From a virus: a DNA stretch of 28,106 nt. Of this stretch, positions 6,818-22,599 are shown piece after piece. Location of the stretch: positions 1 through 28,106 of the IMG/VR virus record IMGVR_UViG_3300030107_004594; one strand, written 5' to 3'. The notes below the pieces were generated by a model, which saw only the letters and a list, made by a program, of their open reading frames with translations, was not told the DNA's origin and searched no databases. The position numbers and the translations under genes were made by a program. Numbering within the stretch: the first letter of the stretch is position 1; each line of letters starts with the position of its first letter.

Positions 6818-7246
6818 TTAAGCGTTTGCAGTAAAGTTACAGCTTACAACGGCTAAATAGTGACTATTGTTCTCATCATTTACCGAAGTTGGTCCGGTTA
6901 TTTGTGAAACCCTTGGAGAAACAGAATACGTATCGGAGTAACCAGAAGCATTAACAGAAATTAATCCGTCAATTACAGATTCAGCTATTGCAGCAGCTAC
7001 AGCAGTTCCTTTATTTGCGGGAGCCATAACTCCACAGGTAATTGTCCCAGAATAGTAGTCTTGTGCTCCTCCGAGTGGTTGAACCGTAGACTGCTCGAAG
7101 TCCAGACTTACCATCACATATTTCTTGTTTTTACCGGGATTTGTGAAAGGCATGTTGTCAAACACAACGGTCACTGTCGCATCTGCGGCATTTACGGTTG
7201 TCTTTATCGCTGACTCAAATGCTGCTCTCGCTTTTACTAAAGTCAT
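6818..7246 (-). CDS. Tail terminator protein (gpU-like)
   Basis: A 142-residue protein that fits the tail-terminator family, which caps the tail tube at the length set by the tape measure and offers the surface that joins the head. The pattern is typical: an N-terminal helix (VKARAAFESAIKTTV), a strand with YVMVSLDFEQSTVQPLGG, a helix KGTAVAAAIAESVIDGLI and a closing strand HYLAVVSCNFTA. Its ATG shares one base with the stop of the upstream head-closure gene (TAATG), so translation is probably coupled. Recognition is by fold pattern and position, since these proteins share little sequence. Confidence 0.7.
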   Translation of the reverse strand: MTLVKARAAFESAIKTTVNAADATVTVVFDNMPFTNPGKNKKYVMVSLDFEQSTVQPLGGAQDYYSGTITCGVMAPANKGTAVAAAIAESVIDGLISVNASGYSDTYSVSPRVSQITGPTSVNDENNSHYLAVVSCNFTANA

Positions 7247-19788: not shown

Positions 19789-22068
19789 ATGAGTCTACTT
19801 GAATTTGTAAAGAATCTTCCTGAAAATTTAGTTTACGCCCCAATTTATAGAAAGGGTGTAGAGATGCGTTCTAAAGAAGGGAAGAAAACTACTAGTACAG
19901 GGAAAAATCCATACGGTGAAGCTTATGAAAGGAAATTTAGACCTTCTGATGTAGTACATTTCCTAGAGAACAACACAGATAGATTTGGAGCAGTAGGGCT
20001 ATTCACAGGTATAAGAGGTTCTGGGGTTTGCATCCTTGATGTAGACAGAAACCTATCTGCCTTAAAGAAAAAATGGGGAGATACGCTAGATAACGCCCCA
20101 GAAATAAAGAGCACAAAGAGAAACGCTGCTAAATACGTCTTTAAAGTCCCTGAAGAGCTTTGGAGTGATGTTAAGGGGCGTTTCCTTTCACAAGAGACTT
20201 CAACCTGCTACGAGATCTTATGGGGCAGACAGGGGCTTATATATGGTGCTTACCCCGGATCTAAAACCTCTTCAAAAGGAGAGTACACATTTAAAGGTGA
20301 TCTAAAAGACATACCTATTGCTCCCCCTTGGTTACTAGCCGAGATGAAAGCTCTTAAGGCAGGAGAGACTAAAGAGGGTTTTGTAAAAAATAGAAAAGGA
20401 CTTGATCTAACAGACAGAACAGAAGACGAAATAGCTCAAATAATTCAAGAATGTCTAAGCGTCATCACGCACCAAGGGGCAGGAAGCCGGGATCACTGGG
20501 TAAAAATAGGAATGGCAATACATTCCGAATTATCTGATGAAAGCGGTTTAACTCTTTGGTCTAAGTGGTCTTCTGAAGATCCTGAGTATGCTGATGATTG
20601 GGGTAAAGGTAATCCGTGCGAATCTGTATGGAAATCTTTTAAACGAGGCGGTATTGGTCTAGGTACTCTCATATATTGGGCAGACAGAGAAGATCCAAAA
20701 AGAGCAAGATTCTCAGCAATAAGTAAGGAAATACTTGAAAAAGCAGAAGCAAAACAAGTTATAGATACTCGACTATTCATACCTAATTTTGACGAGTTCT
20801 ATGAAAGGGCAGACAAGATATTTATGGATGAAAAATCATCCGTAGGTAAGAGAAGATACCAACTAAATAGGTTGGCTAATGATGCAGGAATAAGAGTTAA
20901 AGGAGCACAAGAAATAACAGAGATGTATCTATCAGAGAGAGAACAAAGAATGGGTAAGACTAGACAAAGAACAGCAGAAGAAAGATTTAACGACCCAGCG
21001 AAAGCTCACTATTACATCCCCGGCATCTTTTGTGCAGGTGTTTGGGTGTTATCAGGAGAGGGAGGTTCAGGCAAAACAAATATGGCATGGGCATTTGCTA
21101 GAAAATTTTTAGCTGGAGAAAACTTAGATACACCGGATGGAAGTCGCTCCACTGAAAAAGGAAATGTAGTTTGGTTATCTGGGGATCAGATGGATGCGTC
21201 CATAGACGATCAATTAGTTACCCACTTGAAAAAGGAACATACAAAAAATCTATTTATAGAAAATAACTTCAATATCAACGACTATCCCGCATTTATGGGA
21301 CTTATCAATGAACACAAACCCAAACTTGTGGTTATTGACAGTCTCAGATCGTGTCATAGAGGTACAGGTATCTCTGAAAATGACAGTGAATTTGCTTTAC
21401 CGCTTAGGTGGTATGAACAAATGATGGGGGATATGTTCCCTAGCTGCATGATTCTGATTCTTCATCACAGTGGAAAAGGTGGATCAGGTCCAAGAGGTAC
21501 AAGTGCGATTAGAGATATGTGCTCTTTCTCTATGAACTTTGAGATACCTTCCGCAAAAAGTCCTTATAACCCTCTAACCACAAGGATAATTACATTCAAA
21601 AAACACAGGTTTGGATTAACGAACCATCAAGTTACAGCTCTTCTTAAAGATGACGACACGATTAGTCTCATGTACCAAGGTGCTGTAGATGCTGAATGTA
21701 AGGGTGCTTCCGTTCAGGACAGAGTAAGAATTACGCTTACCAAGGATGTTGACAAGATTTGGACAGTAGAGGAACTCTCTCAAGAACAATTTGTTTGTGG
21801 AAGCAAAGATGCAGTTAGAAAAGCTCTGCAAAGATTAGACAGAGAGGGGTTAGCGACAAGAACAGGTTCTACAGATGGAGGAAGAGGGAAAACGAACCAG
21901 TGGAAAGCTGCTGGTACTGGCCCTATATATAAGAGTTTTATTTCGTCCCAGTATCCGAAATCTACTGGTACGACAGAAGAAAAAACTGGGAAAGCGGTTG
22001 TCCCAACCCCAGAATTGTCCCAGTTTAGAGGGAGTATGGAGGAATCCTTTCAAAAGTGGGACAATTAA
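19789..22068 (+). CDS. Primase-helicase (PrimPol, PriCT-2, RepA/AAA_25-type helicase, winged helix)
   Basis: A 759-residue replication protein. Residues ~1-200 form a primase-polymerase domain, with the metal-binding Asp84 and Asp86 in GVCILDVDRN. Residues ~205-305 resemble a PriCT-2 linker (SRDHWVKIGMAIHSELSD, then WKSFKRGGIGLGTLIYWA). Residues ~400-620 form a RecA-type helicase core: Walker A 423-430 (GEGGSGKT), Walker B near Asp517 (KLVVIDSLRS) and ILILHHSGKGGSGPRGTSAI. A winged helix follows near 645-705 (SKDAVRKALQRLDREGLATR). It would open the origin, unwind and prime. The last part of the gene carries the octamer array described separately, so its protein tail (after ~710) may be shaped by that DNA. 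Confidence 0.9.
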   Translation: MSLLEFVKNLPENLVYAPIYRKGVEMRSKEGKKTTSTGKNPYGEAYERKFRPSDVVHFLENNTDRFGAVGLFTGIRGSGVCILDVDRNLSALKKKWGDTLDNAPEIKSTKRNAAKYVFKVPEELWSDVKGRFLSQETSTCYEILWGRQGLIYGAYPGSKTSSKGEYTFKGDLKDIPIAPPWLLAEMKALKAGETKEGFVKNRKGLDLTDRTEDEIAQIIQECLSVITHQGAGSRDHWVKIGMAIHSELSDESGLTLWSKWSSEDPEYADDWGKGNPCESVWKSFKRGGIGLGTLIYWADREDPKRARFSAISKEILEKAEAKQVIDTRLFIPNFDEFYERADKIFMDEKSSVGKRRYQLNRLANDAGIRVKGAQEITEMYLSEREQRMGKTRQRTAEERFNDPAKAHYYIPGIFCAGVWVLSGEGGSGKTNMAWAFARKFLAGENLDTPDGSRSTEKGNVVWLSGDQMDASIDDQLVTHLKKEHTKNLFIENNFNINDYPAFMGLINEHKPKLVVIDSLRSCHRGTGISENDSEFALPLRWYEQMMGDMFPSCMILILHHSGKGGSGPRGTSAIRDMCSFSMNFEIPSAKSPYNPLTTRIITFKKHRFGLTNHQVTALLKDDDTISLMYQGAVDAECKGASVQDRVRITLTKDVDKIWTVEELSQEQFVCGSKDAVRKALQRLDREGLATRTGSTDGGRGKTNQWKAAGTGPIYKSFISSQYPKSTGTTEEKTGKAVVPTPELSQFRGSMEESFQKWDN

Positions 22069-22157
22069 ATAGTGGGACAAGCCCTTGTCCTAGTTATTTT
22101 CCTTTGTATGAGAGGGTTTTGGCTCGGTTGGGACAAAACAACACTCTTATATAGGGG
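21920..22157. repeat. Dyad of TTGTCCCA octamers, candidate replication origin
   Basis: The octamer TTGTCCCA occurs at 21998-22005 and 22015-22022 in forward orientation and at 22057-22064, 22073-22080 and 22129-22136 in reverse; near copies are at 21943-21950 and 22085-22092. The left copies (21943, 21998, 22015) mirror the right ones (22136, 22080, 22064) about a point near 22,039.5, to within one base. The outermost boxes are part of a longer inverted repeat: CCCTATATATAAGAGTTTTA at 21921-21940 against TAAGAGTGTTGTTTTG read on the other strand from 22152. It straddles the primase-helicase stop and is followed by an AT-rich stretch to about 22,180. Iteron-like boxes next to a primase-helicase gene suggest an origin; an operator is the alternative. 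Confidence 0.75.
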
Positions 22158-22181
22158 TAGATATATTTTTTTGTTAAGGGA

Positions 22182-22210
22182 GTGACAAAAACGTTCTTAT
22201 GTGCTACAGT
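22182..22210 (+). promoter_or_regulatory. Rightward promoter of the small-gene/polA group
   Basis: GTGACA (22182-22187), 17 bases, TACAGT (22205-22210) with extended TGTGC before the -10. The -35 equals that of the primase-helicase promoter. It lies just right of the octamer array, so a protein bound there could control it. It leads to the gene at 22,237 and on to the polymerase. Confidence 0.6.
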
Positions 22211-22236: not shown

Positions 22237-22599
22237 ATGACCCAATTAACAGAGGATCGCACCCATACTGTGCATCCCGAAAACTCTCCAAACCAAATAG
22301 AGGAGTTCCGTTTCACCTACGGAGAAGAGTACGTTTACATACGAGCTGTAGTTGATGATGTTGTTTTAGTTCATTACGCAACATGGCTGTCACCAGAAGA
22401 GTATGAGGCTGCTCTATGCGAAACAAGTATTTATTGGGGCGAACCCATTACTCCTGCAAATGCTCCTACTCAAAAAGATATAGAGGAAATGATATCTCTT
22501 GGTCATTTATGTGACTGGGAAGTAGTAGAAGAAGACTGCGAACCAACGGATGATGAGATGATGTCATCCTTCGGCACTAAATGGCATGACGGTCTGTGA
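22237..22599 (+). CDS. Unknown acidic protein
   Basis: A 120-residue acidic protein. It has EEFRFTYGEEYVYIRAVVDD, which reads as paired beta strands, ATWLSPEEYEAALCETSIYW as a helix, and an acidic tail (CDWEVVEEDCEPTDDEMMSS). No family is recognised. It is the first gene after the octamer array and promoter and overlaps the next gene by one base (TGATG), so it leads a coupled set of four small genes that ends in polA. Confidence 0.6.
   Translation: MTQLTEDRTHTVHPENSPNQIEEFRFTYGEEYVYIRAVVDDVVLVHYATWLSPEEYEAALCETSIYWGEPITPANAPTQKDIEEMISLGHLCDWEVVEEDCEPTDDEMMSSFGTKWHDGL

Follow-up and report, generated by a model that had tools for sequence, protein, structure and literature searches.

A candidate replication origin at the 3' end of a phage primase-helicase gene, with a winged-helix residue that tracks its box word

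The initiator gene and the boxes at its end

The window analyzed here is the whole 28,106-nucleotide stretch (28.1 kb) of IMG/VR virus record IMGVR_UViG_3300030107_004594. Its plus strand carries, at 19789..22068, a primase-helicase gene encoding 759 amino acids, which we call the initiator and characterized by Pfam domains, sequence and fold matches, and AlphaFold2 modelling. Pfam recognizes a Prim-Pol domain (residues 36-181), a PriCT_2 domain (219-298), and an AAA_25 RepA/DnaB-like ATPase (400-565). By sequence, the closest solved helicase to the ATPase is RSF1010 RepA (1g8y), and by fold the best matches are RepA (1olo and 1nlf) and DnaB. The C-terminus consists of a winged helix (about residues 642-707), a disordered tail (710-749), and a terminal helix (743-758); the AlphaFold2 model of the whole protein has a mean pLDDT of 80, with residues 710-749 below 50. 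The winged-helix domain (21712..21909, plus strand), the proposed reader of the boxes described below, runs helix-helix-helix (673-685)-strand-strand in the full model. Modelled alone it has a mean pLDDT of 67, and winged helices in the PDB match it with Z scores up to 10.2.

Two further features of the protein family were seen along the way. In the Prim-Pol domain, window positions 20122-20145 (residues 112-119) encode a family-conserved NAAKY[VL]F, with a lysine, at the place where the catalytic Ser-x-His motif of many Prim-Pol primases is expected; the catalytic motif may be altered in this family. Outside a marine group with short tails, many family proteins finish in a short helical segment that has a tryptophan close to its end (FQKWDN, DLWK, MWNAS, VWD; window positions 22051-22065). 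This segment is possibly a protein-interaction tip.

Five exact copies of the octamer TTGTCCCA fall inside 139 bp at the end of the initiator gene. Two are on the plus strand, at 21998..22005 (box 3) and 22015..22022 (box 4), and three on the minus strand, at 22057..22064 (box 5, over the last codons of the gene), 22073..22080 (box 6), and 22129..22136 (box 8, outer right). Allowing mismatches adds box 1 at the outer left (TCGTCCCA, 21943..21950, plus strand) and box 7 (TTGTCCTA, 22085..22092, plus strand), each with one mismatch, and the degenerate box 2 (CTTTCCCA, minus strand), which at its computed position of 21987..21994 is the exact mirror of box 7. With signs for orientation and numbers for spacing in bp, the boxes read + 43 - 12 + 17 + to the left and - 16 - 13 + 43 - to the right of position 22,039.5, an eight-box mirror array containing two convergent pairs at 43 bp, each with one degenerate member. 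Outside the boxes lies a longer inverted repeat with arms CCTATATATAAGAG (21922..21935, plus strand) and CTCTTATATAGGGG (22144..22157, plus strand); a flank alignment as good was obtained in 1 of 200 shuffles.

The original prediction, made from the letters of the window, had described a near-perfect dyad of seven boxes extended by an outer inverted repeat. All five octamers and both near copies (21943 and 22085) are where it placed them, its spacings of 55 and 17 on the left and 16 and 56 on the right about 22,039.5 are correct, the outermost boxes are exact mirrors, and the outer repeat is real. It missed the degenerate eighth box, and "near-perfect" was generous for a mirror array in which three of eight boxes differ from the octamer. 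Its origin reading also called for an octamer that is not equally frequent elsewhere, which agrees with our counts: of six exact copies across the record (shuffle mean 0.84), only the one at 7042 is outside the array. In 300 dinucleotide shuffles, the largest number of copies of any 8-mer within a 150-bp span was four, compared with the five observed here. These shuffles, together with the reversed-word and wrong-spacing scans reported below, rule out a chance origin of the array. A second inverted motif, CCAGT...ACTGG (or ATTGGTATCACTGG), lies in the spacer of the outer pair at window positions 21948-21968 and recurs in many lineages.

The left part of the array, 21943-22068, also encodes residues 719-759, and it can hold DNA sites because it falls mostly within the predicted disordered tail. 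The original prediction had placed this half under both protein and DNA constraint; that it is coding stands, but the protein constraint is probably weak, as judged from the predicted disorder. The locus thus illustrates one way for a cis element to be accommodated within coding DNA. To the right, a stretch at 22140..22199 (no strand assigned), in which the original prediction had proposed opening at about 22,140-22,180, is a candidate unwinding element: 40-bp windows reach 72% AT at 22,140-22,200, compared with about 55-62% at the array centre. At 22 kb the GC skew keeps the same sign, which is weak evidence either way because the skew follows gene strand in this 28-kb fragment; as an origin marker it gave no usable signal.

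Conservation of the array among relatives

We first collected 48 relatives from IMG/VR, of which two have 84-88% identity and most have 33-59%; further searches enlarged the set to 107 distinct proteins, each taken together with its 3' end. As the original prediction had required of close relatives, an array is present at the same place, the initiator 3' end, and this holds for close and distant relatives alike, in all but a few of the 107. In nearly every relative a short word recurs near the end of the gene and is seldom found in the rest of the locus. The octamer itself had to be discarded as the conserved unit, since TTGTCCCA is missing from most relatives, where a different word takes its place. 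By lineage, the word is TGTCCCA, TGTCCCC, TGTCCCG, TGTCCAG, TGTCCGG, TGTCCTN, TGTTTCA, or TGTCACA. From lineage to lineage the boxes change together, while the mirror order and an inverted pair at 43-45 bp persist. For instance, lineages using TGTCCCA, TGTCCAG, and TGTCCCC, which are about 42-46% identical to the window, have the same order, give or take a base or two: + 44 - 13 - 16 + in one half-array and - 15 + 13 + 44 - in the other. Of 48 non-redundant arrays, 41 contain a convergent pair (TGT...ACA) at 42-46 bp, compared with only 4 of 215 opposite-orientation pairs at that distance. Boxes in the same orientation are modestly phased to the helix, with a period of about 10.1 and an R of 0.45, where the null reached at most 0.27. 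Among twelve long records, 11 have the box pair nowhere but in the array; the remaining one uses a different box word. Arrays are weak or unclear in L140, L135, L050, and some TGTCCTN members. None of the 50,697 cultured-phage records searched carries this family, and no named phage relative turned up beyond an 11% match to Klebsiella phage KA2-1.

Inverted boxes could instead act through structure and not as protein sites, forming either a cruciform in the DNA or stem-loops in RNA that serve termination, regulation, or priming. The strand across the window's array does fold far better than its shuffles (z -5.64), and concerted change of inverted boxes is what would keep such pairing intact. 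Most of the fold excess comes from the boxes, however: over 33 arrays the mean z is -5.8 with boxes and -1.3 without them, which also led us to reject an extended cruciform. The arrays contain same-orientation pairs with mild helical phasing as well, and structure alone does not predict the co-variation of the box word with one helix residue described below. We therefore regard a purely structural role as very improbable.

An operator is the other reading suggested by the position of the boxes, with the winged helix or a repressor controlling transcription of the initiator or of downstream genes. In the window the boxes lie on both sides of the gene end, the start of the next gene is at 22237, and one promoter-like site lies at 22182, although such sites are no more frequent than in shuffles. 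Across relatives, on the other hand, the array stays with the initiator 3' end, and in many lineages all of it is within coding sequence, as much as about 320 bp ahead of the stop. Regions of phage P4 with the same box grammar are annotated as the origin and as a cis-required region for replication. Because the array is so often inside the coding region and the annotated P4 ori has a 44-bp inverted pair, we consider a solely regulatory array unlikely; autoregulation could coexist with origin function.

Two observations concern repeats in particular relatives. The sister pair L033 and L140 have odd arrays at their gene ends, a possible recent box switch: L033 combines four copies of TGTCCC with TTTCACACC repeats downstream of the gene, and L140 carries TGTTGAGG. 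The word CGYTCCA is in strong excess across the whole loci of marine relatives, in L022 (37 copies in 12.1 kb compared with 3.7 in shuffles, the largest shuffle count being 8) and also in L012, L014, L034, L036, and L041. It lies mostly on one strand and, unlike the boxes, spreads beyond the candidate origin; codon use may account for the excess.

Residue 677 and the box word

Within the predicted recognition helix SKDAVRKALQRL of the winged-helix domain, S-K-D-A-V-R677-K-A-L-Q-R-L, the sixth residue (codon at 21817..21819, plus strand) tracks the box word. Arginine at this position accompanies TGTCCCA, lysine TGTCCCC, glycine TGTCCTN, and histidine or glutamine TGTCCAG. Among 746 alignment columns, R677 ranks first for predicting the word. 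For A versus C at base 7 the correspondence is exact, with a normalized mutual information of 0.79, and the next column reaches 0.29. We also placed the changes on a tree built without the winged helix. In the smaller set, 8 of 8 independent pairs agree; the enlarged set contains 15 changes between arginine and lysine, and yields 13 concordant independent pairs, none discordant, and one without a difference (p = 0.00024).

We then carried out a blind test in which contigs were picked by DNA pattern alone and the residue was read afterwards. Arginine was found in 60 of 61 new family members with TGTCCCA and lysine in 36 of 36 with TGTCCCC, an agreement that holds in many helix contexts. Residue 677 is not the sole determinant of the word, since exceptions exist: KVEAIRK occurs with TGTCCGG, KVDAIRK with TGTCCAG, SVSAIAK with TGTCCCA, and SVAGIRKATQRL with TGTCCA[AG]. 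Lysine at the first helix position was considered as the sole cause of TGTCCAG and rejected, as KPAAIRK occurs with TGTCCCA.

Because the winged helix and the array adjoin, some of the concordance could have arisen if both were exchanged together as a single module. Such exchange predicts that other winged-helix columns would do as well as R677, and they do not. The earlier guess that the boxes are read by the initiator's winged helix thus receives strong comparative support from the rank of R677, the blind test, and the independent pairs. The code is specific and testable: an R677K substitution should switch the preference from TGTCCCA to TGTCCCC. In the openly licensed literature we found no paper describing these boxes or this residue code.

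Origin reading and comparison with known systems

Similar arrays lie beside other kinds of initiators. A scan for the TGTCCCA pattern returned at least 120 contigs, compared with 2 for the reversed word and 22 for a spacing 7 bp shorter. Of the contigs listed, 85 have the pattern at the 3' end of a family member; the remainder have other proteins within a few hundred bp, among them CHC2-Toprim-AAA_25, PriCT_1-AAA_25, DUF5906/D5, VapE, DUF927-HTH_56, and DUF3987 proteins. Some of these arrays are close to the P4 ori, such as L203 (- 20 - 11 - 22 + 45 - 8 -) and L218 (- 8 - 12 - 22 + 43 - 8 -), although the TGTCCCA and TGTCCCC scans themselves impose the 43-45 bp spacing, so that these cases are not independent evidence of spacing for initiators outside the family. 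The spacing preference outside the family is drawn from P4, the sole unselected case, and from the lower wrong-spacing count. The residue code does not carry over to these other families, whose C-termini lack the A-I-X-K helix. One locus of 2 kb, L201, has about 14 copies of TGTCCCA at 177-400, mostly on the same strand and 12-13 bp apart, tandem and not mirrored, and contains no recognizable initiator.

The occurrence of TGTCCCA arrays of the same geometry beside unrelated initiators without this helix (D5/DUF5906, DUF927-HTH_56, VapE, DUF3987, CHC2-Toprim-AAA_25) is what would be expected if a separate widespread factor, of host or phage, read the boxes and then recruited the initiator. A shared factor of this kind would not readily allow the box word to differ between close lineages, nor does it fit the co-variation of R677 with the boxes within the family, and we give it the least credence of the explanations considered. 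A broader proposal, on which we are evenly divided, is that self-loading initiators with unrelated motors (RecA/RepA-like, SF3/D5, VapE, DUF927, DUF3987) share one origin grammar of TGT-starting boxes with a convergent pair 43-45 bp apart at the initiator 3' end. The box identity of the RepA type would be set mainly by a one-residue code (R for TGTCCCA, K for TGTCCCC, H or Q for TGTCCAG, G for TGTCCT), making the origin of an uncultured phage predictable from its protein and vice versa.

The best explanation for the array, to which we assign a probability of roughly 0.83, is that it is the phage's own replication origin, self-encoded in the manner of P4 and the PICIs and read by the initiator's C-terminal winged helix. 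From the array, its conservation and geometry, and the co-variation of box and residue, we infer both binding by the winged helix and origin firing. The origin would be carried at the 3' end of the gene for a single protein combining a primase-polymerase, a RepA/DnaB-like ring motor, and the winged helix. The winged helix would recognize boxes of the form TGTNNNN, in which base 7 would largely be dictated by residue 677. The mirrored halves of the array, with about four boxes and an inverted pair 43-45 bp apart (about four helical turns) in each, could seat two oppositely facing initiator assemblies; the motor would be loaded where the DNA is locally melted, and the primase domain would start synthesis. 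The melting site, the loading of two rings, and bidirectionality are suggested by the symmetry of the array and by analogy with known initiators. Against the origin reading stand the unchanged sign of GC skew, the absence of the helix motif from P4 alpha, and the same word and geometry beside unrelated initiators. With these weighed, the analysis names a candidate origin and its likely reading residue for a large family of uncultured phages.

Among the closest known systems is phage P4, whose alpha protein fuses a primase, a helicase, and a C-terminal origin-binding domain. The window's initiator likewise joins a primase, a helicase, and a C-terminal domain, for which origin binding is proposed. 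The P4 record annotates an ori and a crr with type 1 repeats, which we read as TGTTCACC, and both P4 and the window have 8-bp boxes starting with TGT in both orientations. The P4 ori reads - 10 - 11 - 21 + 44 - 10 -, with its convergent pair at 44 bp, compared with 43 bp twice in the window. The crr lies directly 3' of alpha and ends 45 bp past its stop; the window's array likewise sits at the 3' end of the gene for the initiator. The differences are also clear: the box word is TGTTCACC in P4 and TTGTCCCA in the window, a TGT start alone being common; the P4 ori is far from alpha, whereas the window has a single array at the gene end; and P4 alpha lacks the A-I-X-K helix motif of the window's family. 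Its motor is of SF3 type, unlike the RecA/RepA-like AAA_25 motor here (RepA best by sequence, RepA or DnaB by fold), and its origin-binding domain is absent among the fold matches listed for the window's winged helix. The 43-45 bp inverted pair thus links these phages to the annotated P4 origin despite a different helicase fold, which suggests an origin architecture conserved or convergent across motors. In phage N15, simple word counts over the stretch that includes gene 37 (DNA replication protein) revealed no box array of this kind.

The origins of SaPIs and PICIs lie immediately 3' of rep and contain two iteron sets flanking a central AT-rich region, and PICI rep and ori drive replication in a plasmid assay in E. 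coli (PMC6092414); the Rep proteins bind this iteron origin through their C-terminal domain (PMC7581432). The window similarly has two mirrored half-arrays at the 3' end of its initiator gene; unlike in PICIs, its clear AT-rich stretch is found on the right of the array, and its left half-array is coding sequence. The SCCmec helicase Cch2 also uses a C-terminal domain to bind repeats downstream of its own gene (PMC7581432), but it differs in having three short direct-repeat iterons (AAGTG), a D5-type motor, and a separate primase-polymerase. In domain architecture, by which alone they were compared, the window's initiator matches the PrimQH family of PrimPol-PV1 AEP fusions, which combine an AEP, PriCT, a RepA-type ATPase, and a winged helix at the C-terminus that had already been suggested to recognize an origin (PMC5862659). 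The window goes beyond that suggestion by giving a site and, through co-variation, a candidate reading residue, so that a specific and testable code takes the place of the general idea that the winged helix might recognize an origin.
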